DNA of 64,000 nt, from positions 1 through 64,000 of the forward strand of contig NZ_WMBA01000044.1 of NCBI RefSeq assembly GCF_009707865.1. The letters are read 5' to 3'. Position numbers and translations under genes: made by a program. Source of the stretch: Amycolatopsis pithecellobii. GTDB lineage: Bacteria; Actinomycetota; Actinomycetes; Mycobacteriales; Pseudonocardiaceae. Under the pieces are notes generated by a model that did no database searches, was not told where the DNA came from, and saw nothing but the letters and a program-made list of their open reading frames with translations. This document shows, piece after piece, positions 7,239 through 47,341 of the stretch; position 1 is the first letter of the stretch, and each line of letters starts with the position of its first letter.

Positions 7239-7937
7239 CTAGGCACCAGGTCCGAGCTGGACCAGGACTACCTGGCCCGCGGCGGCGCTGCTTGCGGCCT
7301 GCGCGGTGTCCGCGCCGACCAGGACATCGACCGTGACCGCGCCGGTGGAGTCCGGCGGGCCGACATCGAGCACCCGCGCTCGGAACGGTCCGGCCGTGCT
7401 CGCAGTGGCTTGGCTCGTGCCGGTGCCGGTGCCGCCCGCAACTGGGGTCACCTGGACCAGGTCGCCGGGCGCCAACCCGCGGGCGGGCAGGTGTCCCGGC
7501 TTGACTGGCAACCCGACGAGGCGTTCGCCCGGCCCGGGAACCGGTTGGGCGGACAGCTGGCCGGAGGCGAGCATCGTGCCCGCGGGAAGTGTCGAGCGCG
7601 TGACCTGGCCGACCACCCCGGCTCGGTCACTGGCGGGGATGGAAGCCAGCGCCTGATCCGGGACCGCCTTGGCGATCCCGAGATCGCCCTCGCCGATTCG
7701 CTGGCCCCAGCCCACGTCCCGGGTCAGCACCAACACGTCGACCCGCTCCTCCTGGCCCGCGATCAGCGTGTAGTTGCCGTACGCGACCACGGCAGCCAGC
7801 ACCACCGCGACACCCAGCAACCACCAGCGGCGCCGCCGGGGCACCCGCGGGCCATCGCCGCCTTCGGCCTGCTCGGCGGCCACCGAGTCGCCGCTGCGCG
7901 GTTGCGGCGGCCGGGAAAAAGACACAGCAGTACCCAC
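7239..7937 (-). CDS. SAF-domain protein, CpaB/RcpC-like
   Basis: A 232-residue protein starting at GTG with a GGAGGGAG ribosome site. A basic N-terminus is followed by one transmembrane helix ('WWLLGVAVVLAAVVAYGNY') and an extracytoplasmic SAF domain ('VLTRDVGWGQRIGEGDLGIA', then 'VGQVTRSTLPAGTMLASGQL'). A beta-rich C-terminal part contains 'LPARGLAPGDLVQVTPV'. CpaB/RcpC proteins help stabilise or modify the pilus, and the SAF domain is thought to bind the wall or the pilin. It precedes cpaE in the operon, the usual actinobacterial order. Confidence 0.82.
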   Translation of the reverse strand: MGTAVSFSRPPQPRSGDSVAAEQAEGGDGPRVPRRRRWWLLGVAVVLAAVVAYGNYTLIAGQEERVDVLVLTRDVGWGQRIGEGDLGIAKAVPDQALASIPASDRAGVVGQVTRSTLPAGTMLASGQLSAQPVPGPGERLVGLPVKPGHLPARGLAPGDLVQVTPVAGGTGTGTSQATASTAGPFRARVLDVGPPDSTGAVTVDVLVGADTAQAASSAAAGQVVLVQLGPGA

Positions 7938-8038: not shown

Positions 8039-8989
8039 TTAGTTCGCGCGCAGTGCCTGCACCTCGGCGACCGCGAACGTGGCCGTGGCCCGCGAACTCA
8101 TCTGCGGAAAGTCCCCACCGACTTCGGCGGTGCCGTCCGAGCCGACCCAACTCACCGACCACTGGATCGCCCACTCCGCCGTGGCCTGGTCATTCGGCCG
8201 CCCGACCGACGAGCGGGTGTAGACGAACCCACAATCGGGGCTGGCGGCATGCAATCCGTAGGAGCGGTCGTACGGCGTGCCCGGACCTGAACACGACATC
8301 GAGCCGCCGGTGCCGGAGTTGAAGGTCATGCCCACCGGGGCGGCGGTCACCTCGGCCCAGACCGGACCGACCTGCACCCGCTGCACGGCCGGTTTCCACA
8401 CCCCGCGGTCGGACCACACCCAGGTGTTCTCCCCGACGATCGTGGCGTCCCCCCCATCCGGCAATCGCACGTCCGGCGAATGCCGCGGTACCGGCAGAGG
8501 AAGGCGAAGCTGCTCGAACGCTTGCGCCGCCAACTCTGCCGGAGTCGGCAGTGGCGGAGGGGCCGGCGCCGCTGGCGCTGGCCCGGCGGGGAGAGGTGGC
8601 AGGCAGCGCATCCCGAACGCGCTCCCGCCGGGGCGGCCACCACCCGGTGGACCGCCAACGCCGAACCCACCGAGGAAACATCCGGGTGGGATGCCGCTCG
8701 GGGGCTCCGCGGTCCCGCCGACGCCGATCTGGGCGTCCTGACCGGACTTCGGCCGCGAGCCGCCGGGCCGGACCGGAGCCTGCCCCCGCTTCTCCAGGGC
8801 CTGCATGTCGATTTGGGGCGGCGCGTAGCGGCCCGACGTGTCGCCCGGTACCACGATGACCTGGCCGTCGTCATCGTTCGGCGCATCGTCTGCCATCGCT
8901 GATGAATGCGACATCGTCATCGACCCAGCAACTACTGACGCGGCTACCAACAAGGTGATCAGCTCGCTTCTATGTCCCATCGTCAGCAT
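8039..8989 (-). CDS. Secreted Pro-rich protein of the Tad operon
   Basis: The start is the ATG at 8989, overlapping the lipoprotein stop (ATGCTGA). The 316-residue protein has a signal peptide ('LITLLVAASVVAGSMTMSHSSAMAD'-like region, split about 'AMA|DD'). An acidic segment and a long Gly/Pro-rich low-complexity linker with an Ala-Pro repeat follow, then a C-terminal folded domain of about 150 residues with Trp-rich motifs ('WVWSDRGVWKPAV', 'WAIQWSVSWVGSDG') and paired Cys. No family name is recognised. Such proteins accompany actinobacterial tad loci, and a surface or wall-crossing role is inferred. Confidence 0.7.
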   Translation of the reverse strand: MLTMGHRSELITLLVAASVVAGSMTMSHSSAMADDAPNDDDGQVIVVPGDTSGRYAPPQIDMQALEKRGQAPVRPGGSRPKSGQDAQIGVGGTAEPPSGIPPGCFLGGFGVGGPPGGGRPGGSAFGMRCLPPLPAGPAPAAPAPPPLPTPAELAAQAFEQLRLPLPVPRHSPDVRLPDGGDATIVGENTWVWSDRGVWKPAVQRVQVGPVWAEVTAAPVGMTFNSGTGGSMSCSGPGTPYDRSYGLHAASPDCGFVYTRSSVGRPNDQATAEWAIQWSVSWVGSDGTAEVGGDFPQMSSRATATFAVAEVQALRAN

Positions 8990-9549
8990 GTCCCGCCGGG
9001 GAACGAGACCTCGGCGACCTTCCATTGGCCGTCGCTACTGTCGCGCTTCAACGATGCGTTGACCGGATTCCTAGGAACACCAACGGTTTTGCGGTCACCG
9101 GTCTTGGCGTCTGCCTGACCGGTGTGGGAAGCATCCTGGCAGTCGACCACCTTCGCCGTGTCGCCGCTGACTTCGACTGACACGATTCGAGCGGTCACAT
9201 CGCCGTAGATCTTGATGCCAGCTTGTTTCTGATAGCGCATCGCATTGAGCGTCGTCGTGAACTGGGGATCAGTCGCAACCGCGGCCAGCGCGTCATGCCA
9301 GGTGTCTTCCGGCTTGTCGTCGGCATGCATAGTCCGAGGCCAAAACTGGGTGTAGGCGGCCTCGACCGCCTGACGCTGATCCTGCCCGGATGCGCTCGGT
9401 GCCGAGGGGGCCTGCGATGGAGCCGACAGGTTCGGCGACGACGTCGGTGCCGGAGCATCCGCACCGCTACAGCCCGCCACCAGCATCGGCGCCAGAACCA
9501 TGCCCGCCAGCGCGATGGGCTTCGGCCAACGACGGATGCTCACGATCAT
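8983..9549 (-). CDS. Small lipoprotein of the Tad operon
   Basis: I choose the ATG at 9549, which has GGGGAGG eight bases upstream. The 188-residue product has a lipoprotein signal: a basic start, a hydrophobic stretch, then the lipobox 'LVAGC' followed by 'SGADAPAPTSSP'. After a Ser/Pro linker comes a domain with an NTF2-like flavour ('AAYTQFWPRTMHADDKPEDTWHDALAAVA'), ending 'WKVAEVSFPGGTC'. It overlaps the next gene by 7 bases. A membrane-attached accessory of the pilus is likely. I cannot assign a biochemical activity. Confidence 0.72.
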   Translation of the reverse strand: MIVSIRRWPKPIALAGMVLAPMLVAGCSGADAPAPTSSPNLSAPSQAPSAPSASGQDQRQAVEAAYTQFWPRTMHADDKPEDTWHDALAAVATDPQFTTTLNAMRYQKQAGIKIYGDVTARIVSVEVSGDTAKVVDCQDASHTGQADAKTGDRKTVGVPRNPVNASLKRDSSDGQWKVAEVSFPGGTC

Positions 9550-9625
9550 CACAAGTACCTCCCCAGCGGATCCGATATTGATGTCCAAGCCGACCTTCCC
9601 ACCTCGGCCGCACGCGGTTGGCCAG

Positions 9626-10459
9626 CTACGAAAACAGCATGGCCACCAAGGCTCCGGCCAGCAGGGACGGCCCGGCGGGAAACTGCGAATTCATGCGCCT
9701 GGAGCACACCGCGACCACGAGCGCGACCACCGCAGTGAGCCCGCTGGCCATCAGGAGCCCCCGCAGCAGCCCGTCCAAGCCGAACCAGCCCAGGTACAAC
9801 GCGAGCGCGCCGTATAGGGCCGTATCCCCGCCCCCCGTGTGGTTAGGTGCCCATGCCTGCACCAGCGCGGCCAGCGCGAACACCGCCACCGCCGCGCCGC
9901 AGGCGAAGCCGAGCTGCGACCAACGCTCCTCGATCACCGCGGCGCCGAGCAAGGCCACCATCCCTCCGCCCGCGAAGGCCGCCACGAGCGGAAACGGCAG
10001 TCGCCGACAACGCAAGTCGGTGAGCGCGAGCCCGCCTCCCAGCGCGCAGGCCCAACACCACGCGAGCAAGACCGGAGCGGTCCCGAACCGGAACCACCCT
10101 GCCAAACACAGCGTCGCGGTCGCCGTCGACACCACGGCGAACATCACGGTGCGGACGAAGCCGGGGCCGTCAGCGGCGAGCCAACCGTTAGCGGCGCGGG
10201 CCTCAGCAACACTGGCCCGGCCATCAGCTGTGCCATTTCGACCGCCCACGGCGACATCGAGACCACGAGCACCTCCGGGATGAGCGCAAGCGGGCCAGCG
10301 ATCGCCAAGAAGAAGATCGGTGGCACCGACCCCCGACAGACCGGTGCCGCCAGATTCGCCGTGCCGGGCCGGAGCGCGCTGGGCCGAATCGGGTAGCGGG
10401 TTCTGAATCGGAGCCGTGCGTCCGCCTAGTTCCGCCGCCGATCTTGGAAACCTCAACAT
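9626..10459 (-). CDS. A24-type prepilin peptidase (N-terminus uncertain)
   Basis: The C-terminal ~175 residues are a membrane protein with the two catalytic Asp motifs of A24 prepilin peptidases: 'ALTDLRCRRLP' and the GxGD-like 'HTGGGDTALYG'. It would cleave the pilin and TadE-like proteins of this operon. The ATG at 10459 has a strong GGGAGGTG site. However, the first ~100 residues in this frame are hydrophilic and unlike the family, and the domain could instead start at GTG 10147 or ATG 10144. A second frame (10144-10326) encodes 'PPIFFLAIAGPLALIPEVLV', which looks more like a peptidase N-terminus, so a frameshift is possible. Confidence 0.75.
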   Translation of the reverse strand: MLRFPRSAAELGGRTAPIQNPLPDSAQRAPARHGESGGTGLSGVGATDLLLGDRWPACAHPGGARGLDVAVGGRNGTADGRASVAEARAANGWLAADGPGFVRTVMFAVVSTATATLCLAGWFRFGTAPVLLAWCWACALGGGLALTDLRCRRLPFPLVAAFAGGGMVALLGAAVIEERWSQLGFACGAAVAVFALAALVQAWAPNHTGGGDTALYGALALYLGWFGLDGLLRGLLMASGLTAVVALVVAVCSRRMNSQFPAGPSLLAGALVAMLFS

Positions 10460-10652: not shown

Positions 10653-11093
10653 TTACGCCGAGGCTCGGCGCCGTCCCTTGGAAGGAGTCTTCCCTGCGCG
10701 GCGGTGTCGCGGGGACCCGTCGGCGTTCTCGAACAGCGCGGCGTGGCGGCGCAGCCACGCCTGCATGCTCTCCAGCACGGGCAGCAACTCGGCGCCAGCG
10801 TCGGTCAGCCCGTATTCGACCGAGCGATCCCAGCCCTCGGAGAGGGTGGTCTTGTCGACCAAGCCCTCCTCGGTAAGGACGCGCAGCGCCTCGGTGATCC
10901 GGCTTGGGTTGAGGGTGGCCTTCGTGCCGTTCCAACGATCACGGAAGGGCCATTCGGCTGCCATGCGCGCGAGGTCGCGTGGGCGGCACGGGCCGTCTCG
11001 TAGCAGTGCGAGCACCGCCAGATCCCAGTTGCTGTGGAACAGCTTACCTATGTTGTATGTGTCGACCGCCAGCGTCCAGTCGTTAGCGCGCAT
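10653..11093 (-). CDS. HxlR-family winged-helix transcriptional regulator
   Basis: A 146-residue protein with the HxlR pattern: 'LFHSNWDLAVLALLRDGPCRPRDL' (helix-turn-helix entry), 'NPSRITEALRVLTEEGLVDK' (recognition helix and wing) and 'VEYGLTDAGAELLPVLESMQAW'. The usual N-terminal Cys of redox-sensing HxlR proteins is not visible, so a small-molecule or other signal is likelier. The basic C-terminal tail (Lys/Arg-rich) is longer than usual. It stands alone between the Tad operon and the Nudix gene, and its targets are unknown. Confidence 0.82.
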   Translation of the reverse strand: MRANDWTLAVDTYNIGKLFHSNWDLAVLALLRDGPCRPRDLARMAAEWPFRDRWNGTKATLNPSRITEALRVLTEEGLVDKTTLSEGWDRSVEYGLTDAGAELLPVLESMQAWLRRHAALFENADGSPRHRRAGKTPSKGRRRASA

Positions 11094-12262: not shown

Positions 12263-13312
12263 ATGGCTCGATTGCTGGTGCTCGGCGGCTCGTGGTTCCT
12301 CGGCCGCGCCGTAGTGGAAGAAGCCCTCGCCCGCGGCTGGGAGGTCACCACCTTCCGGCGCGGCCAGACCGGTCACGACGTTCCCGGCGTTACCACGATT
12401 CGGGGCGACCGCACGAATCCCGACGATCTCGCCCGGCTTGTCGCTGGCGGTCCGTGGGACGCCGTGGTGGACACCAGCAGCTTCGTCCCGCGCGAGACGC
12501 TCGCGGTGGCGAAAGCTCTCGAACCGGTCGTCGGCCGGTACGTGCTGGTCTCCACCGTGTCGGTGTACGAGGAGTGGCCGGTCGAACCGCTCACCGAAGA
12601 GTCGAGCGTGCTCGACTGCCCAAGCGACGCCGGCCCCGACTTCGGCTTCGAAGGCAACCCCGGCCCATCGATCTACGGCTTCACCAAGGCTGGGTGCGAA
12701 CGCGCCATCACCGAGGTGTTCGGCCACGACCGCGCCGTATTGCTGCGACCTGGCGTCATCCTCGGCCGTTACGAGTACGTCGGCCGTCTGCCCTGGTGGC
12801 TTCACCGCGTCGCACGCGGAGGCCGGGTTCTCGCGCCCGGCCAGCCGCACAGGCGCATCCAGCCCGTCGATGTCCGCGACGTGTCCACGTTCGCGCTGCA
12901 CACCGCCACCAGCGACGGGCCGGTCGGCAGGTTCAATGTGACGGCTAGCGGACGCGAGACGATGAGCGACTTCCTCAAGGCATGCCAGCAGGTGACCGGT
13001 TCGGACGCGACCTTCACCTGGATCACCGATGAGGAATGGCTCGTCGCCCAGGGGGTCGCGCAGTGGACCGAACTGCCGTTGTGGCGGACCTATCGTGGCG
13101 CCTGGGCCGTCGACTCCGCCAAGGCGCGTGACGCTGGCCTGATCACCAGGCCGCTCGTCGACACTGCGATCGACACCTGGGCGTGGCTGCATGGCGGCGA
13201 AGACGCCGTCGCGCACGAACGCGCCAGCGAGCAAGGGATCGCGCCGGACAAGGAACGCGCGATCCTGGGCACCTGGGACGCGCGGGAACTCGATCATTGC
13301 GGCGGCGTATAA
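12263..13312 (+). CDS. NAD-dependent epimerase/dehydratase (extended SDR family)
   Basis: A 349-residue protein with an N-terminal Rossmann fold: 'RLLVLGGSWFLGRAVVEEAL' is the GGxxFxG dinucleotide motif. A 'DTSSF' strand follows and the catalytic pair is in 'YGFTKAG' (YxxxK). The preceding Ser is in 'VLVSTVSVYEEW'. The C-terminal half has 'RRIQPVDVRDVS' and a substrate domain. Proteins of this group are often annotated as nucleotide-sugar epimerases or isoflavone-reductase-like enzymes, and I cannot name the substrate. It is monocistronic, with the GC-rich codon use of the region. Confidence 0.87.
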   Translation: MARLLVLGGSWFLGRAVVEEALARGWEVTTFRRGQTGHDVPGVTTIRGDRTNPDDLARLVAGGPWDAVVDTSSFVPRETLAVAKALEPVVGRYVLVSTVSVYEEWPVEPLTEESSVLDCPSDAGPDFGFEGNPGPSIYGFTKAGCERAITEVFGHDRAVLLRPGVILGRYEYVGRLPWWLHRVARGGRVLAPGQPHRRIQPVDVRDVSTFALHTATSDGPVGRFNVTASGRETMSDFLKACQQVTGSDATFTWITDEEWLVAQGVAQWTELPLWRTYRGAWAVDSAKARDAGLITRPLVDTAIDTWAWLHGGEDAVAHERASEQGIAPDKERAILGTWDARELDHCGGV

Positions 13313-15996: not shown

Positions 15997-16227
15997 ATGC
16001 AGGTTCTCATCCAACCAACAACGTGGGCGCCCGACGGCCACTACGACCACCTCGCACATCCGCGCGAGACATGCGACGGCCAGCCGCGGCCGATCACCTC
16101 CTTCGACGGCTCGGTTCTGATGGCCGTCTGCGACGCGTGGATCGCAGACGGCGAAGCGTCGTCCGGTACTGCCCGCCGGTGTCCGCAATGCACGGAGACT
16201 TGCCGAGCGATCGGAGGACTAGCGTGA
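15997..16227 (+). CDS. Small zinc-ribbon-like hypothetical protein
   Basis: A 76-residue protein with the pattern 'TTWAPDGHYDHLAHPRETCD', then 'SFDGSVLMAVCDAWI' and the closing 'RRCPQCTETCRAI'. The spaced Cys residues (C, C, CPQC, C) suggest one metal site. Its stop overlaps the next start (GTGATG at 16224-16229), so it is translationally coupled to the winged-helix ORF downstream. Similar short proteins are common in actinomycete accessory operons, but the function is unknown. Confidence 0.62.
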   Translation: MQVLIQPTTWAPDGHYDHLAHPRETCDGQPRPITSFDGSVLMAVCDAWIADGEASSGTARRCPQCTETCRAIGGLA

Positions 16228-16745
16228 TGCCGCTTCGCGGTTCGTTGCCTGCGCAGAACCCGGGCGGCCAGCATGCCGGACTCCTGCGTGATCTTGCCGA
16301 GTCCGACATCGCCCGCTGGCAGGTTCTCTGCCGCGCGGATCGTGGCGGCCTGTCGCTGCACGGCGATCTCGTGGTGGACGAGGGCCGTGCGTTGCCGTCC
16401 TACCTCAACCCGACCTCGCATGGCCTCATCAACAACGGCTTGCTGTCGGTGGCGCCGCGGCACGTCCCGAATGGCCGCACCAGCGTTCGTGTCGAGCTGA
16501 CCGACGCAGGCCGCGCGGAACTGGCGCGCCTGACTTCTGAACGGCAGCACAGCATTCAGAGAAATGTGCGATCGAGTTCCGTCTCGACGGACCTCTGCCA
16601 TCGACTGAAGGAGTCCACCATGTGGGAGTGGATATTGGTCATTCTGTGCGCGCTGGTGTTCGTGATCCGGATTGGGTATCTCCTTTTCGACCGTCCCAGT
16701 CCGTTCGGCACCGATGCGCAGCAACGTGAACGGGCTCGGAAATGA
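16224..16745 (+). CDS. Winged-helix-like hypothetical protein, frame continues into a membrane segment
   Basis: It starts at GTG 16224 (or ATG 16227) with GGAGG seven bases upstream. Residues 1-115 look like a MarR/PadR-type winged helix: 'RWQVLCRADRGGLSLHGDLV', 'SHGLINNGLLSVAPRH' and 'RTSVRVELTDAGRAELARL'. The same frame then runs without a stop into 'MWEWILVILCALVFVIRIGY', a membrane helix that has its own ribosome site. Either one protein carries both parts, or a stop has been lost between two genes. It probably belongs to the lanthipeptide operon. Confidence 0.55.
   Translation: MMPLRGSLPAQNPGGQHAGLLRDLAESDIARWQVLCRADRGGLSLHGDLVVDEGRALPSYLNPTSHGLINNGLLSVAPRHVPNGRTSVRVELTDAGRAELARLTSERQHSIQRNVRSSSVSTDLCHRLKESTMWEWILVILCALVFVIRIGYLLFDRPSPFGTDAQQRERARK
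16620..16745 (+). CDS. Small single-helix membrane protein (possible internal start)
   Basis: An in-frame internal start: the ATG at 16620 has GAAGGAG seven bases upstream, better than most starts nearby. It would give a 41-residue protein with one transmembrane helix and a charged C-terminus ('DAQQRERARK'). It shares its frame with the winged-helix ORF above. The stop overlaps the next gene (ATGA at 16742). Confidence 0.45.
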   Translation: MWEWILVILCALVFVIRIGYLLFDRPSPFGTDAQQRERARK

Positions 16746-17149
16746 CTGCGCCGGTACTCGCGCCCGAGAAAGGGGGCGGCCCCCGCCCGGATCCCGGCCA
16801 GTTTCGTCCGGTCGACATCGAAACCCTGGAGCGTGTGCTGGCGAGGCTGCAAGCATGGGAGCCGCCACCGCGCTCACCCCGGAATGGCGACAGCGGACAG
16901 GACGAGCCAGGTGGCACGATCCATTGGTATCCCGGGTATTTCACTGCTTCGCTTCACGCGGTCGAGTCTTCTTATGCTCCGCCGTTGTTGTTTCGCGGCT
17001 TGCGGATCCGGTGGGCGGTGTGCGGTGCGCCTGCGACCGTGATCGAGGTCCCGGAGGGCAAGGAACGCTGCGAAGCGTGCCAGGCGATTCTTCGCAAACA
17101 TGGACTTTTCCTCGACGACAGCGTCGCTCCGAGGAAACCTGCCGACTAA
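16742..17149 (+). CDS. Hypothetical protein upstream of the lanthipeptide precursor
   Basis: A 135-residue protein starting at an ATG overlapping the previous stop (ATGA). It has a Pro/Gly-rich N-terminus, a helix 'VDIETLERVLARLQAWE', and a middle part 'GTIHWYPGYFTASLHAVESS' and 'RGLRIRWAVCGAPATVIEVP', ending with 'ERCEACQAILRKHGLFL'. The CEAC pair plus an upstream Cys could form a metal site. No signal peptide is seen. It is the last ORF before the precursor peptide (42 bases away), so it may be a regulator or partner of the pathway, but I recognise no family. Confidence 0.62.
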   Translation: MTAPVLAPEKGGGPRPDPGQFRPVDIETLERVLARLQAWEPPPRSPRNGDSGQDEPGGTIHWYPGYFTASLHAVESSYAPPLLFRGLRIRWAVCGAPATVIEVPEGKERCEACQAILRKHGLFLDDSVAPRKPAD

Positions 17150-17191
17150 CGCAGTCTTCGCGTTCCACGGAATGCGAATTGAGAATCATTC

Positions 17192-17371
17192 ATGACAGGA
17201 AAGGGAAGGGGGGTGATTTCGGTGACCGCGGCTCTGATCGAAGTACCGGCGGTGTTCGAGTTGGACGTGCAGGTGGAAACCGACCGGGTCCGGCCGGAGG
17301 CGATGGCCTGCCAGACCGACGACGGGTGCGGCTCGACCTGCGAGATCTCGGCTTGTCACTCGCAGAAATGA
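17192..17371 (+). CDS. FxLD-family class I lanthipeptide precursor peptide
   Basis: This short gene encodes a 59-residue peptide if the ATG at 17192 is used. GTG 17213 or 17222, behind an A/G-rich ribosome site, would give about 52 or 49 residues and fit the family better. The leader contains 'VFELDVQVE', the F-x-L-D motif that defines the FxLD class I lanthipeptides. The C-terminus is the core, 'CQTDDGCGSTCEISACHSQK' (residues 40-59), with Thr42, Ser48, Thr49, Ser53 and Ser57 available for dehydration and Cys46, Cys50 and Cys55 (plus Cys40) for thioether rings. It lies 85 bases before lanB. The cleavage site is unknown. Confidence 0.88.
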   Translation: MTGKGRGVISVTAALIEVPAVFELDVQVETDRVRPEAMACQTDDGCGSTCEISACHSQK

Positions 17372-17456
17372 TTCCAGCGGGCGGGCCGGAGTTCCCGATA
17401 CCTGGCCCGCCCGCTGCCACTGATGGATTTCGTGATTGATACTGGAGGTGCGGGCG

Positions 17457-20429
17457 ATGCCCACGGTGGACTACCGCTATTGCGGTACCGGGTTGCTGCG
17501 CGCGTCGTCGCAGCGCCTCGCTCCGTCGCGGTGGCCGGTGCTGTCTCACGAACTCGATTGCCGGGCGTGGCTCGATGAGGTCTGGCCGAGGGTTGCGGCG
17601 GCTGTGACCCATGCGAGCCCGGTGCTCGCTTCTGGTGTCCTGGAGATTCTGCGGGGACGTCGGCGCTCGGCGCGGGAGGTACGGCGTACGACGGAGGCGC
17701 TGCTGCGGTATGTCCTGCGGTTCGGCCGCTCGACCCCGTTCGGTCTGTTTGCCGGAGTCGCTCCGGTCACGATCGGCGACGACACGGAGGTGCGTGTCGG
17801 CGACCGGCATCGCGCAGTGGCCCGCCCTGACAGCCGCTGGCTGCGGCAAGTGATCCAGCGGCTGGAGGCGTGCCCGCAACTCCTGGCACGGCTGAAGGTG
17901 GTGTTCCACGACGCCGTCGAAGAGTGCGGCGACCGACTCGCGCTCGCCGAAGCGGAAGTGGTGAGCATCCGAAACACCCCTGCAGTCGCCTCCGTGCGCC
18001 GCCTCGCGGCCACCCCGGTCCACTTCCAGGTGTTGGTTGAGGCGCTGGTGGCCGAGTACCCGGGGGCCGGTGACCCTACCGCGATGCTGTTGTCCTTGGT
18101 GGAGCGCCGTTTTCTGGTGACCAGCCTGCGAGCGCCGGGCGCGGTCAGCGACCCGCTGGGGTACCTTGCCGATTCCTTGCAAGCACTCGACTTTGACGAG
18201 GTGCCGGTCGCGGCGTTCGCGGCGGAGGTAATAGAGATCCGCCGCACGCTCGACATACTCAACCAGGAACCTCACGAGCAGGCACGAGCGCAGCTGGCCG
18301 AGCGGATGCACGCGCTCGTTCCCGCGCCCCGCGGGCCGTTGTCGCTCGATCTTCGGCTCGATGCCGACGTCCGCCTGCCGCACCGCGTGGTGCGGGAGAT
18401 CGAACACACCGCGGGGGTGCTGGCGCGTCTGGTGCGGGAGCACACCGGAAGCCGGGCTTTTCGGGACTACTTCACCGCGTTCTGCGACCGGTACGGCACC
18501 GGAACCCTCGTCCCCGTCCGCGCAGTCGTGGATTCGGCGGCGGGACTGGGGTGGCCGCGCGACTACCCGAGTAGTCCGGCGGCGAGCGGGCGGCACGTCT
18601 TCTCCGAGCGCGATCGCCTGCTGTTGTCCTGGATCACGGAGGCAATCGCCCAGGGCGAGCGCGAGATCGAACTCGACGAAGCCGCGGTGGACGCCCTCGC
18701 CGCCGCCGGAGGTGATCCGGACGCGGTACCACCACACATCGACCTGGGAGCGCGGATCCACGCTGTCAGCGTGGCCGACCTGGAACGCGGCGAGTACCGG
18801 TTCACCGTGGCGCCGGGCCGGGCCGCAGGCACGCTGTCGGCGCGGTTGAGCATCCTGGTGCCCGAGGCCGGGCTGGCGGCGGTGTTCTCCTCCCTGCCGT
18901 CCACCACGGAGGGCGCAATCGTCACGCAGATGTCGTTCACGCCGCCGTATCCGAGCGCGGAGAACGTCGCCCGCCTGCCGCGGTACACGCCGGACGTCGT
19001 CTCGGTCGGCGAGTACCGCCCGGACCACGAGGGCGTGATCGGGGTAGACGACCTCGCCGTCACCGCAAGTCGGCGACGCCTGCACCTGGTCAGTCTGTCC
19101 CGTCGCCGGGTGATCGAGCCGATGGTGCTGCATGCGCTCGCGGTGAAGCAGCAGCCGCCGCTGGCGCGGCTGCTCGGGGAACTGTCCCGGGCGCTGGACA
19201 CCGGCTGGATTGGCTTCGACTGGGGACCGACCGCCGCGGAGTTGCCGTTTCGGCCGCGGCTGCGCTACCGGCGCGCCATCCTGTCTCCGGCCCGCTGGAG
19301 GCTCGCCCGGGAAGCCCTGCCCGGCGACCCGGCTGGCTGGGATGACGCGCTGGCACGGTGGCGCGCGACGTGGCGTTGCCCCCACCGGGTTGAGCTGCGC
19401 GACTTCGATCAGCAGTTGCCGCTGGATCTGACGGTGCCCGCGCACAGGGAGGTGGTCTACCACCACCTGCACCAGCACGACGAGGCGGTTCTGGTCGAGG
19501 CGCCCCAGCCGGATGCCGACGGCTGGCTTGACGGCCGTTCCCATCTCGTCGTGCTGCCGTTGGTCTCCCGACGGGCACCCGAGCCTTCTCCGCCAGTGGA
19601 GTTCCTTCCCGTTCTGGGTAGCGCACACGGTCATCCGCCCGCCTCGCCCCGGTCGGCCTGGCTCTACGCGAAGCTGTACCTGGCCGAGTACCGGATGGAT
19701 CCTCTGCTGGTGCACCACCTGCCGGACCTGCTAGCCGACCTGGGCGAGCGAGACTGGTGGTTCGTGCGCTACCCGCAAGCCCGCGAGGGCGACGAGCCCG
19801 ACCACCTGCGGCTGCGCGTGCGCACCACCGGCGACGCCGACAAGATCCTGACCGCGGTGACCGCATGGGCTGACCGGTTGCGCACCGACGGTCTGCTCAG
19901 CAGATGGGCCTTCGACACCTACTACCCGGAGATCGGACGCTACCGCGCCATCGCCGAGGCCGAGGCCGTGTTCGCCACCGACTCCCGCTACGTCCTCGCC
20001 CGCCTGACCGGGCCGGCCGCCGACAGGCCGTCCCCGGTCGCGGCCACAGGTCTGTCGCTGTTCGATCTCGCCACCGCCTTCCTTGGCGGCCAGCAGCGCG
20101 CCGCCGACTGGCTGGCTCGGCAGGCGCCCCCGGCGGTGCCCGATCGCGCTGACGTCGCCCACGTGACCCACCTGGTCCGTACCCGGGCATGGCCGGACGT
20201 CGTGGAACCAGCCGAGGTCGGCGCGGCCCTGCACGCCCGCGCCGAGGCTGTGCACCGATACCGGCATGCGTTACCCGCCGACGCCGACCTCGATGGCTGC
20301 CTCCACGCGCTGTTACACATGCACCACAACCGCGCCCTCGGCGTCAACCGGGACCGCGAAGCCGTCTGCCTGCGGCTGGCACGCCAAGCCGCCGCCACCT
20401 GGCGCACCACCTTCGGGGGTCAGTCGTGA
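17457..20429 (+). CDS. lanB: Class I lanthipeptide dehydratase LanB
   Basis: The start is the ATG at 17457 with GGAGGTG upstream, giving 990 residues, a full-length LanB. The N-terminal two thirds match the glutamylation domain: it begins 'YRYCGTGLLRASSQ', has 'LRYVLRFGRSTPFGLFAG' early on, and 'ETHLDSP'-type motifs are absent as expected. From about residue 730 ('SAWLYAKLYLAEYRMDPLL') it matches the SpaB_C/elimination domain, with 'WWFVRYPQ', 'DHLRLRVRTTG' and 'TYYPEIGRYRAI'. LanB uses glutamyl-tRNA to glutamylate Ser/Thr and then eliminates to Dha/Dhb. Its stop overlaps the lanC start (GTGA). Confidence 0.93.
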   Translation: MPTVDYRYCGTGLLRASSQRLAPSRWPVLSHELDCRAWLDEVWPRVAAAVTHASPVLASGVLEILRGRRRSAREVRRTTEALLRYVLRFGRSTPFGLFAGVAPVTIGDDTEVRVGDRHRAVARPDSRWLRQVIQRLEACPQLLARLKVVFHDAVEECGDRLALAEAEVVSIRNTPAVASVRRLAATPVHFQVLVEALVAEYPGAGDPTAMLLSLVERRFLVTSLRAPGAVSDPLGYLADSLQALDFDEVPVAAFAAEVIEIRRTLDILNQEPHEQARAQLAERMHALVPAPRGPLSLDLRLDADVRLPHRVVREIEHTAGVLARLVREHTGSRAFRDYFTAFCDRYGTGTLVPVRAVVDSAAGLGWPRDYPSSPAASGRHVFSERDRLLLSWITEAIAQGEREIELDEAAVDALAAAGGDPDAVPPHIDLGARIHAVSVADLERGEYRFTVAPGRAAGTLSARLSILVPEAGLAAVFSSLPSTTEGAIVTQMSFTPPYPSAENVARLPRYTPDVVSVGEYRPDHEGVIGVDDLAVTASRRRLHLVSLSRRRVIEPMVLHALAVKQQPPLARLLGELSRALDTGWIGFDWGPTAAELPFRPRLRYRRAILSPARWRLAREALPGDPAGWDDALARWRATWRCPHRVELRDFDQQLPLDLTVPAHREVVYHHLHQHDEAVLVEAPQPDADGWLDGRSHLVVLPLVSRRAPEPSPPVEFLPVLGSAHGHPPASPRSAWLYAKLYLAEYRMDPLLVHHLPDLLADLGERDWWFVRYPQAREGDEPDHLRLRVRTTGDADKILTAVTAWADRLRTDGLLSRWAFDTYYPEIGRYRAIAEAEAVFATDSRYVLARLTGPAADRPSPVAATGLSLFDLATAFLGGQQRAADWLARQAPPAVPDRADVAHVTHLVRTRAWPDVVEPAEVGAALHARAEAVHRYRHALPADADLDGCLHALLHMHHNRALGVNRDREAVCLRLARQAAATWRTTFGGQS

Positions 20430-21532
20430 CCACACGCTCCCTGGTCGCGCAGTCATTGGCCAATGGCCCGGCCGGGCAAGCGCTGCTGGCCCTGGAACGG
20501 GGCCAGGATGCCCGCCACTGGCTGGCCAACCTGGTAGCCGAACCGGTACTGGCCCACCCCGAGGAGGCGAGCCTGTTCGACGGCGCGCCTGCGGTCGCAT
20601 TCACCCTTGCCGCCACCGACCAGCACCGAGCACTGGCTGCGCTCGATGAACATGTCGAGAAGATCACCCGGTGCCGGTTGGAGACCGCCTACCAGCGCAT
20701 GGCCCGCGGCGAGTTGGCGGACAAGCGCGAGTTCGACCTCATCGGCGGCCTGACCGGGCTCGGCGCCTACCTTCTGCGCCGCGGAGCCAACGACGAGCTG
20801 CTGCGTGAGGTACTGCGCTACCTGGTGTGCCTGACCCAGCCCCACCAGGACGGACACCCCGGCTGGTGGGCGACCGACGGCCCCACCGGCGCTGGCCCCG
20901 CCTGGCAGAACGGCCACGGCAACCTCGGCATGGCCCACGGCATCTGCGGACCGCTGGCGCTGCTATCGCTGGCGTTGCGCCGCGGCATCGTCGTATCCGG
21001 GCAGACCGCAGCCATCAACCGGATCTGCCAGTGGCTGGACCGCTGGCGCTGCGGCACGCCCCCGCGGGCCTGGTGGCCCGAGGCCATCACCCACGCCGAC
21101 CACGCACGCGGCATCGTCGAACGGCCTGGCCCGTCGCGCCCGAGCTGGTGCTACGGCACCCCCGGCATCGCTCGCGCGCAACAAGTCGCCGGCCTCGCAC
21201 TCCGCGACCGCACTCGGTGGCGACTTGCCGAGGACATCCTGTCTTGGTGCCTGACCGACGAGCAGCAGCTCGCCCAGCTCGGTGACGTGTCGCTGTGCCA
21301 TGGCTGGGCCGGGGTTGTGCACACTGCCTGGCGCGCCAGCCGCCACAACGACCAGCTCGCCGCCACGCTCCCACGCCTGCTCAACGGCCTGACCGCCCAC
21401 CTGGCACGCCAGCCTCCGAGCAGCCGCGGGCTGTTGACCGGCGCCACGGGGGCCATCCTGGCTCAGCGCGCCACCCGTACGAACACACCGCCGGTTACGC
21501 AGTGGGACACCTGCCTACTGCTCAGCGAATGA
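20426..21532 (+). CDS. lanC: Lanthipeptide cyclase LanC
   Basis: It starts at GTG 20426 overlapping the lanB stop. The 368-residue protein has the LanC zinc ligands: Cys in 'PSWCYGTPG' (about residue 241) and the Cys-His pair in 'SLCHGWAG' (about residues 291-292). The conserved active-site His is in 'GMAHGICGPLALLS'. It forms Lan/MeLan thioether rings by adding Cys thiols to Dha/Dhb in the core. Ten bases separate it from the methyltransferase gene. Length is slightly short but normal for FxLD systems. Confidence 0.92.
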   Translation: MTTRSLVAQSLANGPAGQALLALERGQDARHWLANLVAEPVLAHPEEASLFDGAPAVAFTLAATDQHRALAALDEHVEKITRCRLETAYQRMARGELADKREFDLIGGLTGLGAYLLRRGANDELLREVLRYLVCLTQPHQDGHPGWWATDGPTGAGPAWQNGHGNLGMAHGICGPLALLSLALRRGIVVSGQTAAINRICQWLDRWRCGTPPRAWWPEAITHADHARGIVERPGPSRPSWCYGTPGIARAQQVAGLALRDRTRWRLAEDILSWCLTDEQQLAQLGDVSLCHGWAGVVHTAWRASRHNDQLAATLPRLLNGLTAHLARQPPSSRGLLTGATGAILAQRATRTNTPPVTQWDTCLLLSE

Positions 21533-21541
21533 AAGGGAGCG

Positions 21542-22768
21542 ATGAACAACACCACGGACACCGCCGCGAGCTCACCTGAGGCCCGGCGCGAGATCATGCT
21601 TGCCAAGGTCCAGGAGAAGGGCTACGCGAAGCGCCCCGAGGTGGCGCGGGTGCTGCGTGAGGTACCGCGGCACGAGTTCGTGCCCGAAGCCAACCTGGAC
21701 GCCGCACACAACCCCTGGCAGGCGGTGATCACCCACCGCTTCGCCGACGGCACCTCGCTCTCCTGCGCCTCCGCGCCGTTCGTCGTCGCGATGATGCTCG
21801 ACCAGCTCGCCGTCGAACCCGGCGACAAGATCCTCGAGATCGGCGCCGGGACCGGGTACAACGCCAGCCTGCTCGCCGAGCTGACCGGCGAGGACAGCAA
21901 CGTGGTCACCATCGACATCGACGCCGACGTCACCGCCCAAGCCACCCACAACCTGGCCGCCGCAGGCTACCCAGGCGTACATGTGGTCACCGGCGACGGC
22001 GCGCTCGGCGTTCCCGAGCACGGCCCGTACGACCGGCTGATCGCCACCGTCTCTCCGTGGGACATTCCCTGGGCGTGGTGGCGCCAGCTCGCCCCCGGCG
22101 CCCGCGTGGTGCTGCCGCTTCGGTGGCGCGGCCAGGCCCGCTCGGTCGCGTTCACCTACCGCGATGGGCGGCTGATCGCCGACTCGATCGAACTGTGTGG
22201 CTTCGTCTACCTCGTCGGCGACGACGAAGGCGAACAGTCCGCGCCGATCACCGACGACGAGACCATCCGGCTGCACTGGGACCAAGACCAGCCCTTCGAC
22301 CTCGAAGCCCTGCACGGGGTGCTCGATCGGCCCCGCAGCACCGAATGGTCCGGCGTCACCATCGCGGGCGACGAGCCCCACGACGGGGTGTGGCTGCGGC
22401 TGACCGTCACCGACCCACGCGTGTGCCGCCTCAACGTCCCCGCCGACACCAAGCCCACGGTCTGCGACCCGATCTCACCCGGTCGCGCACCCGCGCTCGT
22501 GGAGGGCAGCTCGCTGGCCTACCTCACCTCCCGCCGCCACGAGGACGGCGACACCACCCGATGGGAGCTAGGCGCCACCGGGCACGGCCCCGCCGCGACC
22601 GAACTCGCCCGCCACCTCTGCGACGAAATCCGGGCCTGGTCCATGCACCGCGACAAACGCAAACCCACCCTCGTCGCCTACCCCGCCGACACCCCTGACA
22701 GCGAATTGCCCGGACCAGTGATCGACAAAACCCATAGCAGGCTCGTGCTCACCTACGAAACCGACTGA
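21542..22768 (+). CDS. PCMT-like O-methyltransferase of the FxLD lanthipeptide system
   Basis: A 408-residue protein with ribosome site AAAGGGAG. The N-terminal ~200 residues are a protein-L-isoaspartate methyltransferase fold: 'EVPRHEFVPEANLDAAHNPW', SAM motif I 'ILEIGAGTGYNASLLAEL' and 'VHVVTGDGALGVPEHGPYDR'. The C-terminal ~180 residues are an extra domain typical of the 'methyltransferase, FxLD system' proteins. Related lanthipeptide enzymes (OlvSA) methylate an Asp in the ring so that it collapses to succinimide and then isoaspartate. Here the core has Asp-Asp-Gly, a good candidate site, but that is inference. Confidence 0.9.
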   Translation: MNNTTDTAASSPEARREIMLAKVQEKGYAKRPEVARVLREVPRHEFVPEANLDAAHNPWQAVITHRFADGTSLSCASAPFVVAMMLDQLAVEPGDKILEIGAGTGYNASLLAELTGEDSNVVTIDIDADVTAQATHNLAAAGYPGVHVVTGDGALGVPEHGPYDRLIATVSPWDIPWAWWRQLAPGARVVLPLRWRGQARSVAFTYRDGRLIADSIELCGFVYLVGDDEGEQSAPITDDETIRLHWDQDQPFDLEALHGVLDRPRSTEWSGVTIAGDEPHDGVWLRLTVTDPRVCRLNVPADTKPTVCDPISPGRAPALVEGSSLAYLTSRRHEDGDTTRWELGATGHGPAATELARHLCDEIRAWSMHRDKRKPTLVAYPADTPDSELPGPVIDKTHSRLVLTYETD

Positions 22769-22789
22769 TTCGCCCGACTAGCGAGCTGA

Positions 22790-23204
22790 GGATGGCCAGG
22801 AAGCCCGAACCCGCTAACCGATCAAGCAGTCGATGCCTTCGAGACCGAGTTGATCCAAGCGTTTCGCCGTGCTGCCCGCACGTGCGACCTGGGACCGGTC
22901 GTAGAACTGGCCGACTTCCTGATCGCCAGTGGGGTCACGGTACGGAGCCGCGGTGGCTTGCTCGGGCTTTTCTGGTTTCACCACGATGCTCTACAAATTC
23001 CGGGAGGACCCGGACTCGGCGAAACGGCTTCGGGCTCATCGGTCTCCAGCTCGTGAACGAAGGCTGGTGCACCGACACGGATATGGAAAATGGCATGTCG
23101 GAGTTCAACACCTGATTCCGCTGCTGTGGTGCATCGACTGCATGGCCTGCGCGGACAACGAGGAATTCCCGGCGGTGGTGGTTCCCCGCAGTCGTCACAC
23201 GTGA
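22790..23204 (+). pseudogene. Degenerate small gene(s), probably frameshifted
   Basis: Three overlapping frames each carry short, protein-like parts but none has a full gene with a good start. One frame has 'DAFETELIQAFRRAARTCDL' and 'GPVVELADFLIAS' without an ATG or GTG. The ATG at 22792 (after GAGGATGG) is in the next frame, which ends with 'GLIGLQLVNEGWCTDTDMEN'. A third has 'LLWCIDCMACADNEEF'. I read this as a decayed small gene or two downstream of the lanthipeptide operon. Confidence 0.35.
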
Positions 23205-23404
23205 GCTGATGCAGCGAGTTCTGTCGGGCCTGCAACGCCTGTGACGGTCCCGCTCAGCCGCATGCCAACACGTTGGCGTGCGGCGGCTGGCTGCTGGTAC
23301 TTGTGCTGGCGTTTGGGATCTTCTGCCTGAGCTGACGAACACCGAGAACAAATCAATCGATCCAACGAACAGTTGTTACAACCTCTATAAGAGAAAGGCT
23401 AATT
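23205..23404. other. Intergenic stretch with a small TM-like fragment
   Basis: A frame without a usable start reads 'CSEFCRACNACD' followed by a hydrophobic stretch 'GGWLLVLVLAFGIFCLS' (about 23211-23338), which may be the remains of a small Cys-rich membrane protein. The last 60 bases are AT-richer and are the probable promoter of the next gene. Confidence 0.35.
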
Positions 23405-23917
23405 GTGAAGTTCGTTGCGCACATCGCGCATATCGCCTGGGTTGTCCTTACGGCCTGCGCCGCGTTCGTGGCAAGCGGGCTCGTTTGGTCCGTACACGCC
23501 GGTCCGTGCCCCGCCACATGCGGCCATCCAGCGGGGCACGGCGTCCCATTCGCCGCGGTGGCCGCTCCAGCACTGCTGTTACTGCTTGCCACCTGGATCA
23601 TTCGGCGGACCCATAGGCCAGACGGTTGCACCCGATGCGGAAAGTTGGCCGACCGTTCATATCGCCAGTGGTATTTAGGTCTCGCTCAAACAGGTTGGCC
23701 CGCAAACGCTCTGCCGCTCCTCGAAGCAACCCTCGGTGCCGCCATGCTCGCGACGTGGCTGCTCAACGTGCCTCGCGCGTTCCTGGTTGTCCTCCCGGCC
23801 TTCCTGACCCTTGGCGCCCTCGAAATGCGCGCGCTACTGGTGCACAACGCTGTTGAAGGCCGCAAACCCCATAACGAAACCGAGTCCGACCCAGCCGCCA
23901 CGTCGGCGACGGTGTAG
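23405..23917 (+). CDS. Four-helix membrane protein with a CxxC motif
   Basis: A 170-residue protein starting at GTG with AGAAAGG upstream. It has four predicted membrane helices ('IAWVVLTACAAFVASGLVWS', 'AAVAAPALLLLLATWII', 'LPLLEATLGAAMLATWLL', 'AFLVVLPAFLTLGALEMRAL'). Between the second and third is a cytoplasmic loop 'GCTRCGKLADRSYRQWYLGL' with CxxC. I recognise no family. It follows the lanthipeptide locus but there is no evidence that it exports or protects against the peptide. Confidence 0.65.
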   Translation: MKFVAHIAHIAWVVLTACAAFVASGLVWSVHAGPCPATCGHPAGHGVPFAAVAAPALLLLLATWIIRRTHRPDGCTRCGKLADRSYRQWYLGLAQTGWPANALPLLEATLGAAMLATWLLNVPRAFLVVLPAFLTLGALEMRALLVHNAVEGRKPHNETESDPAATSATV

Positions 23918-23929
23918 GGGCCAACGTGA

Positions 23930-24274
23930 ATGCTCGTTGCGGTCTGCCGCGAATGCGGCGTGCCCTGGTGGCGGTGCACGGAACGACGCTGCTGCCCCGA
24001 TTGCCGCCACCTCGCCGCCGAGGGCGCTAGCCGCAATGCGCCAGGCTTGAACCCACCGGGATCACACGAATCAGACCACAGGAACAGGAACTCAGACTTG
24101 TGCAACGTAAATCGCAACGGCGACAAGGTTTCCGACTGCGGAAGCTGCATATGTCGCAAGAGCGACAACTACGACGTGCACAACTATGTACCTACCGGCG
24201 AGACGGTCACGGTCGGCAACACCCGGTTCGCGACGCGGAAGTGCAACAGGGGCTGCGGTTGCTACGAGTATTAG
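23930..24274 (+). CDS. Cys-rich small protein (two Cys-rich segments)
   Basis: A 114-residue frame. The first part, 'VCRECGVPWWRCTERRCCPD', has CxxC and CxxxxCC patterns like a zinc ribbon. The second part, from about residue 57, is a different Cys-rich peptide: 'DCGSCICRKSDNYD' and 'RKCNRGCGCYEY'. A TTG at 24098 after AGGAACAGGAAC would make this a separate 58-residue peptide. The DNA here is less GC-rich than its surroundings. No family is recognised. Confidence 0.5.
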   Translation: MLVAVCRECGVPWWRCTERRCCPDCRHLAAEGASRNAPGLNPPGSHESDHRNRNSDLCNVNRNGDKVSDCGSCICRKSDNYDVHNYVPTGETVTVGNTRFATRKCNRGCGCYEY

Positions 24275-29847: not shown

Positions 29848-30393
29848 TTACCGGGTGGCTCCCAGGCCGCCGATGAGCAGGGACACGGCATTACGGAAAT
29901 CGTCGGCGCCGCTGTCGAGGGCGATCTCCGAGCAGATCGCCCGCACGAACAGCTTGGCCGCCCATGCCGCCCCGGTGTGCCCGGCAGCGGTCAGCACCTC
30001 GGTGGCGTAGGTGATGACCTTGAACCGGTCCGGGTCGGCCGACGCGGTGATCGCGAGCTGCCCGGCCACGCCACGCAGCGGCAGCAGCGTGTCCCGCATC
30101 CCGGCGGCCAGCTGGGTCAGGGCCTCGGCCCACGAATCCTCCGGTCCCAACGGCGGCGGTAGCGGCACCATGTCCGCGGCCCGTTCGACGATGGCGGCAC
30201 GCAGCTTCTCCCGGTTGCCGATGTGGTGATAGATGACCGTGGGGTTGCAGCGGAGCCGCTCAGCAACCTCGCGCATGTGCAGGCCCTCGAGACCGTGGTC
30301 GACGACCACCTCGAGCGCCACGCCGAGAACGACATCGGGCGTGAGACCGATGGCCGTCGTGGCGCGCCGCCGGGATGGGGGCGTCGTAGTCAC
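29848..30393 (-). CDS. TetR-family transcriptional regulator
   Basis: I use GTG 30393 (181 residues). The N-terminal helix-turn-helix is clear: 'IGLTPDVVLGVALEVVVDHG', 'LEGLHMREVAERLRCNPTVI' and 'YHHIGNREKLRAAIVERAAD'. A C-terminal ligand-binding domain with TetR_C-like helices follows. It is divergent from the small gene at 30569, and two GTCAC..GTGAC-type sites lie in the gap, so it is a leading candidate to bind them. Its ligand is unknown. Confidence 0.82.
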   Translation of the reverse strand: MTTTPPSRRRATTAIGLTPDVVLGVALEVVVDHGLEGLHMREVAERLRCNPTVIYHHIGNREKLRAAIVERAADMVPLPPPLGPEDSWAEALTQLAAGMRDTLLPLRGVAGQLAITASADPDRFKVITYATEVLTAAGHTGAAWAAKLFVRAICSEIALDSGADDFRNAVSLLIGGLGATR

Positions 30394-30530
30394 CAGCGAA
30401 ACGATACGGGCCGGGAACGGGTCCCACGAGCGGTGTCGTACGCGTCCCGGCGTCCACGTTCGCTCCACCTCACCGGGACACCGATGAGGGTGTTTCGAGC
30501 TAGCAGAAACGGAACGAGGTAAGCGACACT

Positions 30531-30846: not shown

Positions 30847-31728
30847 TCAGGGCTTACGCGCTAGCCCGGCGATGGCCTGCGATCGGCTGGCGTCCATCTC
30901 GCCGACCAGGGACTCCTGCTCCAGACCGGGCATGGTCCACTCCGGAGTCCACACGAGGCCCGGAGGGTCGGCCAGTTCCCAGTCCCCGAAGAAGTCCCGC
31001 ACCTGCGCGCGCGTGCGGGTGCGGGCCTTGGACGTCGCCGCGTCGTAGTTCTTCAGCACGTTCTCCAGTCGTGCCTTCGCGTCCACCGACATGTGCTCGG
31101 TGCTGGCGTGGGAGATGGCCAGGCACGACCCCGACGGCAGCAGCTCCCGGAAGTAGCGCACCGCCTGGTCGGCTGCGGCGTCATCAGGCACGAAGTGCAG
31201 CAGCGCCACCAGCAACAGCCCGACCGGCCGGCCCAGATCGATCAGCCCGGTCTCCCTGATGGCGGTCCACAGCTCCTCGTAGCGCAAGAAGTCCCCGTTG
31301 ATCGGTACGTTGCGCTCGAGCTGGCCGGACTGTTCCAGCAGCAGATAGGCATGCGCCGAGGCGACAGGATCGTGGTCGGCGTAGATGACGTGGCACTCGC
31401 CCGGCGCGAACCGCTCGGCCAGCTGGTGCACGTTGCCCTGGGTCGGCAGCCCCGAGCCGATGTCGATGAACTGCCGGACACCCTCGTTGATCATGTACTG
31501 GACGGCGCGGGCCAGGTACCCACGGTTCTGCCTGGCCGCCCACGGTATATCCGGCAGGAGCCTGATCTGTGCGTCGGCGAAGTCCCGGTCTACGGCGTAG
31601 TTCGAGTTGCCGCCCAAATACCAGTCGTAGATGCGTCCCTCGTGCGGCTTGTCCGTCGACGCTTGGAACAACCGCCGTGCCTCATCCTCCGACATGGCCC
31701 GTATCGGCTTCCCCACCGTGTTGTCCAT
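30847..31728 (-). CDS. SAM-dependent methyltransferase, DUF574/SAV2177 family
   Basis: I use the ATG at 31728 (AAGGGG upstream), 293 residues. The family pattern is clear: 'FQASTDKPHEGRIYDWYLGG', 'NSNYAVDRDFADAQIRLLPD', 'GVRQFIDIGSGLPTQGNVHQ' and 'CHVIYADHDPVASAHAYLLL'. The 'DIGSGLPT' region corresponds to SAM motif I. These proteins are very common in actinomycetes; their substrates are not known. A C-terminal DFFGDWEL and 'PEWTMPG' complete the family signature. Confidence 0.85.
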   Translation of the reverse strand: MDNTVGKPIRAMSEDEARRLFQASTDKPHEGRIYDWYLGGNSNYAVDRDFADAQIRLLPDIPWAARQNRGYLARAVQYMINEGVRQFIDIGSGLPTQGNVHQLAERFAPGECHVIYADHDPVASAHAYLLLEQSGQLERNVPINGDFLRYEELWTAIRETGLIDLGRPVGLLLVALLHFVPDDAAADQAVRYFRELLPSGSCLAISHASTEHMSVDAKARLENVLKNYDAATSKARTRTRAQVRDFFGDWELADPPGLVWTPEWTMPGLEQESLVGEMDASRSQAIAGLARKP

Positions 31729-32043
31729 GTGCTGGATCCCCTTCACTCGCCGCCCCATCACAGGTGCATCGGACGCTCAGTCTGCCGGGTAGTTCCCTCA
31801 CCGGCACACCGGCCGGGAACCCCAACGGGGCACAGCCGGCGAAGCGTCATGGTCGGCTGGTGACGCGGCCGATGTCATCAGGAGACATCTGGGTGGCCTG
31901 TGCTGGCCCGGTCGCGACCGTGTCCTGCCTTGATCTGAACGCGGTGTTGCCGGTCGGCCAGCTTGCCACCCCGGGCTCACCGGTCGCGGTGTGGCCCGTC
32001 CTGTGGTGCCAGCGAGTCCCGCGGCCAGCCGCGGGACTCCGCA
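31729..32043. other. Intergenic stretch between DUF574 and DUF397 genes
   Basis: Several open frames cross it but none has a plausible protein or a ribosome site. It should contain the promoter of the leftward methyltransferase gene and the end of the DUF397 transcript. I see no strong repeat. Confidence 0.4.
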
Positions 32044-32259
32044 TCATCCCGCTGCTTCCCGGTTCGGCAGGTCCTTCGCGGACTGAACCAGCGCCGCGAA
32101 CCCCGGCTGGCTCATGCGGAGCGCGCCGCCGGCACGGTTTTTCGAATCACGCACCAGCACGTGCCCCTCACACAGCGCCACCTCGACACAATCACCCTTC
32201 GCGTCGCTGTAGGAGGACGTCGTCCATACCAGCCCCTGGGGCAGATCCTCGTACCTCAT
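32044..32259 (-). CDS. DUF397-family small protein
   Basis: A 71-residue protein with the DUF397 signature: 'GLVWTTSSYSDAKGDCVEVA', 'HVLVRDSKNRAGGALRMSQP', 'GFAALVQSAKDL'. DUF397 proteins are usually encoded directly after an XRE/DUF5753 regulator and are thought to act with it. Here the two genes overlap by 4 bases (32256-32259). Confidence 0.87.
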   Translation of the reverse strand: MRYEDLPQGLVWTTSSYSDAKGDCVEVALCEGHVLVRDSKNRAGGALRMSQPGFAALVQSAKDLPNREAAG

Positions 32260-36023: not shown

Positions 36024-36156
36024 CACAAAGGTGCTCTTTCTCAAGTACTTCGACTTGATCTGTCCCCAGTAGCGATTCCAACTAGCAGGCCTGCCCGAAG
36101 GTGAACCCCGAACGAGGTTCCGCGCGCCCGATGGCGCATGCAGGTGGGCCGCGCGC

Positions 36157-47268: not shown

Positions 47269-47341
47269 TGGAGCTAAGGGGACTCGAACCCCTGACCCCC
47301 TCACTGCCAGTGAGGTGCGCTACCAGCTGCGCCATAGCCCC
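47269..47341 (-). tRNA. tRNA-Ala (anticodon GGC)
   Basis: A 73-base cloverleaf on the minus strand. The acceptor stem GGGGCTA pairs with TAGCTCC, the anticodon arm CCTCA-CTGGCAG-TGAGG gives anticodon GGC, and the T-loop has GGTTCGAGTCC. No encoded CCA is seen; the discriminator base is A. tRNA genes are frequent integration sites, and this one lies at the right side of the accessory region. Confidence 0.93.

Follow-up and report, generated by a model that had tools for sequence, protein, structure and literature searches.

The window, i.e., the whole 64,000-nucleotide stretch of Amycolatopsis pithecellobii DNA analyzed here, carries four intact, co-directional open reading frames (ORFs), lanA, lanB, lanC, and lanSA, which are adjacent to one another on the plus strand within positions 17192–22768 (Table 1). 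The tetranucleotide GTGA at 20426–20429 is common to the lanB stop and the lanC start, and lanSA starts 9 bases past the lanC stop. An earlier note on this DNA had described a single operon, in which a short ORF with a FELD leader motif and a Cys/Ser/Thr-rich core precedes a full-length LanB, a LanC that overlaps it by GTGA, and a PCMT-like methyltransferase. All of these elements were found in place, the core being ACQTDDGCGSTCEISACHSQK, and the gene order, overlap, and spacing support the view that they form one operon.

Table 1. Features of the lan operon and its surroundings (positions in the window)
Feature	Position	Strand	Remarks
T2SSE and T2SSF genes	3927-6637		Pfam
SAF-domain ORF	7239-7937		Pfam
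Weak match, disregarded	8983-9588		Pfam
Leader-peptidase-like ORF	9626-10459		Pfam, 23.7 bits, below cut-off
HxlR regulator	10653-11093		Pfam
Epimerase	12263-13312		Pfam
Likely ribosome-binding site of lanA	17207-17212	+	AGGGGG, first base 15 nt 5' of GTG 17222, 5/6 AGGAGG matches
lanA, FxLD precursor, 49 aa	17222-17371	+	TIGR04363, 49.8 bits; aligned with L003, L004, L007
lanA-lanB hairpin, 13-bp uninterrupted stem, 16-nt loop	17375-17416	+	GC-rich; no T-run after
lanB, class I dehydratase, 990 aa, anti-type glutamyl lyase domain	17457-20429	+	PF04738, PF14028
lanC, cyclase, 368 aa, GTG start	20426-21532	+	PF05147
lanSA, PIMT-like aspartyl O-methyltransferase with C-terminal domain, 408 aa, no fused lyase	21542-22768	+	TIGR04364
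TetR regulator	29848-30468		Pfam
Methyltransferase	30847-31761		PF04672
DUF5753/HTH regulator	32256-33116		Pfam
MFS transporter	34578-36044		Pfam

No protease, exporter, or immunity gene was recognized close to the operon when 31 flanking ORFs, with mechanically chosen frames, were searched against Pfam, and the operon was all that Pfam recognized between 13.4 and 29.8 kb. Rfam gave no match within 16000–24000, and a promoter scan found none. The window also contains a tRNA-Ala gene (47268–47341) and a tmRNA gene (62566–62935).

The assignment of the operon to the FxLD family goes far beyond chance, as judged from the NCBIfam and Pfam scores. The precursor matched TIGR04363 with 49.8 bits (cut-off, 30), and the methyltransferase matched TIGR04364 with 411.5 bits (cut-off, 320) over residues 14–405. 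Both curated cut-offs are exceeded, in agreement with the FxLD assignment and the extra C-terminal domain of the methyltransferase in the earlier note. Bit scores in Pfam were 592 and 140 for LanB (PF04738, Lant_dehydr_N; PF14028, Lant_dehydr_C), 105 for LanC with an upstream extension from 20189 in the query (PF05147, LANC_like), and 141 for LanSA (PF01135, PCMT). As in class I systems, LanB is full-length with both glutamylation (PF04738) and elimination (PF14028) domains, and LanC bears WCYG and CHG motifs that align with those of NisC. The locus adds one more member to an FxLD family that is widespread in actinobacteria and has been described before. The PIMT domain PF01135 would also fit a repair methyltransferase with a housekeeping role whose gene is next to a lanthipeptide operon only by coincidence; however, the 411.5 bits to the FxLD-specific model, scores under the cut-offs of the PIMT equivalogs listed, and the start 9 bases past the lanC stop leave this idea a negligible probability.

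The precursor probably starts at GTG 17222 rather than ATG 17192 and would comprise 49 residues, because the former has the better Shine-Dalgarno match (5/6 vs. 3/6) and the start codons of six relatives (L003, L004, L059–L061, and L063) lie at or within a few residues of this position. The L003 and L004 precursors align from the GTG 17222 residue onward, and M or V occurs at or near it in the translations of L054, L059, L060, L061, and L063. The length of 59 residues proposed earlier probably has to be revised. The computed mass of the 49-residue precursor is 5253.39 Da, which four losses of 18 Da would lower to 5181.34 Da. In the 49-residue numbering, the leader motif is F12-E-L-D15, the core contains T32-D-D34-G-C36, and Cys residues occupy positions 30, 36, 40, and 45. 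TIGR04363 has one match in the own genome (7.9 Mb; 99.96% complete, 3.2% contamination), namely lanA, and this search found no second precursor. Structure comparison found no solved structures resembling the precursor. Five short leader/core pieces were not found in the open-licence PMC literature, the sole library searched, which is in line with the earlier expectation that the exact core is likely unreported while the cluster type is known.

LanB was assigned to ATG 17457 (5/6 Shine-Dalgarno matches) rather than to TTG 17436, the mechanical ORF start (3/6), as its likely start. Its R785, R787, E825, R828, and H954 align with R784, R786, E823, R826, and H961 of NisB. LanC has GMAHG at 168, WCYGTPG at 241, and SLCHGWAG at 289, all of which align with NisC and 8byk; the Cys and Cys-His residues of the WCYG and CHG motifs are presumably zinc ligands, as in NisC. 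The NisB residues R784, R786, E823, and R826 are described in PMC9486935. The AlphaFold model of LanSA, generated from a 15-row alignment, has a mean pLDDT of 88.4, and its best PDB match is the Thermotoga maritima PIMT 1dl5 (E 3.9e-20; 374–377 alignment columns, gaps included). The TM score of 0.50 by query length and the rmsd above 9 indicate that this likeness holds domain by domain only. Single-domain PIMTs can be fitted to the N-terminal part at about 2–3, and in the model the two domains may be set at a different angle than in 1dl5. Both the profile and the predicted model give LanSA a PIMT domain plus a C-terminal domain as in TmPIMT, an arrangement of the LanSA/PAMT (lanthimiditide) type that is accompanied here by a TxDGC core motif with the conserved Asp (TDDGC). 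A C-terminal domain of this kind occurs in 80% of the clade holding most RiPP-associated PIMTs, according to PMC10787088.

Lant_dehydr_C (PF14028) has a single match in the own genome, within LanB itself, and no second glutamyl lyase of this family, fused to LanSA or free-standing, was found in the 99.96% complete genome. This bears on whether the operon could be of the coi type, where the stereochemistry of one ring is set by an additional glutamyl lyase acting in syn mode. Such a lyase does occur in clusters with related genes (L005, L007, L008, and L050), but LanSA has 408 residues and no lyase domain, and the only lyase domain in the genome carries anti-type residues, so that a coi-type operon is very improbable here. 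We instead regard the locus, with a probability of about 90% as judged from its sequence, as an intact olv-type class I lanthipeptide operon with a LanSA that has no fused glutamyl lyase. The own genome contains two LanC-like domains, one of them in the operon; the other, at G000:C122:110256-111323 outside the window, lies in an open frame of 1137 codons that is perhaps another lanthipeptide synthetase.

Another FxLD subtype is represented by nine loci (L007, 1751–4813 and 6030–6983, and L125–L132; L007 and L125 are near-identical, and the LanB of L132 is broken). The LanB lyase domain of this subtype is devoid of the arginines: the equivalents of NisB R784, R786, R826, and H961 are kept in 1/9, 0/9, 1/9, and 6/9 loci, respectively. 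All nine have a separate syn-type lyase (Lys, no Arg826) after LanC. From these sequences, the subtype is predicted to eliminate in syn mode only, its LanB lyase domain being disabled.

Precursors were compared across 103 partly overlapping loci, 85 of which gave a precursor by pattern (72 distinct); the L083/L033 pair was added through a relaxed search, and no precursor was found in the other 16 loci. The distance from FxLD to the Thr of TxDGC is 16 residues in 59/72 distinct precursors. All 72 have Asp as the third residue of TxDGC, a partly circular result because the pattern allowed Asp or Asn only; the next position is occupied by Gly (50 precursors), Asn (19), Thr (2), or Glu (1). Eleven window-like precursors, the window included, were chosen by a C-terminal pattern that contained S43, C45, and Ser/Thr47, and the constancy of these residues is thus uninformative. 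Not required by the selection were T39 and C40 (11/11), Thr at position 20 (11/11), and Cys30 (10/11). A LanB lies directly downstream in eight of the ten others, which supports the grouping independently of the selecting pattern: seven show 51–66% identity and the one in L063, broken over several frames, shows 42–51%, whereas LanBs belonging to other subtypes reach 33–39%. For L065 and L068, the short downstream flank that was covered contains a methyltransferase (39%) but no LanB.

At the genome level (counts include the own genome), a four-sequence precursor model matches 106 of 390 genomes of the family, TIGR04363 matches 46 of 296 genomes sampled from the class, and 57 of 150 family genomes encode methyltransferases above the TIGR04364 cut-off. 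Weaker TIGR04364 matches, below the cut-off, occur in all 150 family genomes and all 14 controls and presumably include general PIMTs. LanSA matches at E 1e-60 were obtained in 8 of the 19 genomes of the genus.

The gap between lanA and lanB is occupied by a hairpin (Table 1). The folding energy of the gap, −41.8 kcal/mol, corresponds to a z of −3.2, with 1/200 shuffles as good, and the z values of the L004 and L003 gaps are −5.0 and −2.8, respectively. Stems of at least 13 bp occur in 4 of the 752 85-nt tiles of the window. Hairpins were found in the lanA–lanB gaps of all eight relatives checked, i.e., those with a LanB downstream, the gap being measured up to the LanB match. Six of them have an uninterrupted stem of at least 10 bp; in L060 and L062, the stem is 6 bp long and its extensions are interrupted. 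In the hairpin alignment, which contains eight of the nine sequences (L062, near-identical to L060, was left out), 4 of 12 pairs are changed on both sides, and the covariation term is slightly unfavorable (+0.44). A classical terminator was ruled out because no T-run follows the hairpin. We infer that the hairpin acts by partial attenuation or mRNA processing.

Among the eight LanSA relatives from named genomes, the full operon is present in two, L003 (Saccharothrix algeriensis) and L004 (Haloechinothrix halophila), and the other six are decayed or have no LanB of the window type. In L002, LanC begins at residue 35, LanSA is frameshifted, and LanB gave no match; L009 retains the last 39 LanB residues along with frameshifted LanC and LanSA; and in L006, LanC is spread over two frames and LanSA is present, with no LanB match in the fetched flank. 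A short ORF 3' of lanSA in the window (22792–23115) is partly matched at the corresponding position in L002 (52%) and, in two frames, in L009, and looks like a remnant. The scarcity of full operons and the broken counterparts of this ORF in L009 are what would be seen if the window operon were intact-looking yet silent or starting to decay, without a product; however, its four ORFs are full-length with conserved active sites, and we consider this improbable in comparison with an intact olv-type operon.

In the remaining relatives (L005, L007, and L008), a single-frame LanSA is located beside a LanB of only 33–39% identity. The L007 cluster contains a further methyltransferase (39%), as does, judging from a contig of equal length in the TIGR04364 search, probably that of L005, and none was seen for L008. 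In L005 and L008 (6694–8206), the last 90 LanC residues precede the single-frame window-type LanSA beside another LanB–LanC–lyase set, and this LanSA is possibly retained for action in trans. From these arrangements, it seems that LanSA moves or is retained independently of LanB and LanC, which agrees with a remark in PMC13001092 that the methyltransferases did not seem to have evolved together with LanC. In L006 (Actinopolyspora mortivallis), a CRISPR-like array (4941–5902; 16 copies, 61–62-nt spacing) reaches the 5'-terminal part of the lanC match, which begins at 5891. In L051 (8802–9374) and L052 (12139–12777), on one contig (same genus), a window-type LanSA gene is split by about 22.8 kb. 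Genes for ClpB-like, M48 protease, trypsin/PDZ protease, AhpC/TSA, and thioredoxin proteins lie near the ends of this insert, resembling a stress-tolerance island. By eye, the insert ends resemble imperfect inverted repeats; a script found 10-base inverted matches only and no direct repeat.

By analogy with CoiA1 and OlvA, as described in PMC9486935 and PMC13001092, the rings T32–C36, T39–C45, and C40–S47 are predicted for the product. CoiA1 has the rings Thr43–Cys47, Thr50–Cys55, and Cys51–Thr57 (PMC9486935). The (Me)Lan rings of mOlvA are placed equivalently, and mOlvA has an additional N-terminal Lan, the Cys of which corresponds to Asn in CoiA1 (PMC9486935). On the basis of published residue numbers, not sequence letters, the C40–C45 spacing is one residue longer than Cys51–Cys55 of CoiA1, and the other ring spacings are equal. 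A fourth ring, T20–C30, is perhaps formed: Cys30 sits two residues before T32, where 30 of 61 other distinct precursors also have Cys, and T20 is the sole Ser/Thr between FELD and Cys30. This ring is uncertain because 30/48 other precursors with equal spacing have a Ser that stands one position farther from the leader motif than T20, and because the L063 precursor has retained the Thr without the Cys.

The predicted T32–C36 ring encloses D33 and D34. D34, the Asp directly before Gly, is the expected LanSA target and is predicted, by analogy, to be converted via a methyl ester and an aspartimide to isoAsp. The TxDGC motif is described in PMC13001092 and PMC10787088. According to the former, OlvSA works only on the cyclized peptide, hydrolysis gives 70–80% isoAsp, and the +14/−18 Da chemistry is established for the OlvA homologue.

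In the proposed pathway, LanB would bind the FELD leader, glutamylate core Thr/Ser residues, and then carry out anti-elimination, and LanC would close the T32–C36, T39–C45, and C40–S47 thioether rings and possibly T20–C30. LanSA would next methylate Asp34 within the T32–C36 ring, and the methyl ester would collapse to an aspartimide, hydrolysis of which would mostly yield isoAsp. Leader removal and export would depend on enzymes encoded elsewhere, and the lanA–lanB hairpin probably lets precursor mRNA outnumber enzyme mRNA. By this analogy, the product should be a small, ring-rich peptide with one chemically rearranged aspartate.

Somewhat speculatively, the window may represent a small Pseudonocardiaceae-like subgroup with anti-only elimination, a T20–C30 MeLan in place of Lan, and a hairpin-regulated lanA–lanB junction, whose LanSA type outlives its own operon and modifies peptides of other clusters in trans; we regard this combination as rather unlikely. 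The intact and compact four-gene operon is a convenient test case, and a comparison of anti-only relatives with those that carry a syn lyase is relevant to the divergence of ring stereochemistry.

Among known systems, the olv cluster of Streptomyces olivaceus NRRL B-3009 (OlvA, OlvB, OlvC, and OlvSA) has, by its published description, the same combination of precursor, full-length LanB, LanC, and lyase-free LanSA, and the Asp of its N-terminal MeLan ring is the LanSA target (PMC13001092; PMC9486935). It differs in the core sequence, OlvA being compared by description, and in that the N-terminal ring here would start at Thr (MeLan), whereas mOlvA has Lan. The coi cluster of Streptomyces coelicolor A3(2) (CoiA1, CoiB, CoiC, and CoiSA), likewise compared by description, has the same Thr/Cys spacing of three rings, except for the one extra residue here, but its CoiSA has a fused syn-type lyase that is missing from the window operon. 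According to PMC9486935, no product of olv or coi had been reported from the native producers. No family-level difference separates the window operon from NCBIfam TIGR04363/TIGR04364. The class I precursor families I 1–4 of Walker et al. 2020 (PMC7268733) are likewise actinobacterial, their core Asp is conserved, and they are accompanied by a PF01135 gene; these four largest class I precursor families of that survey, then uncharacterized, are of the same kind as the operon described here.
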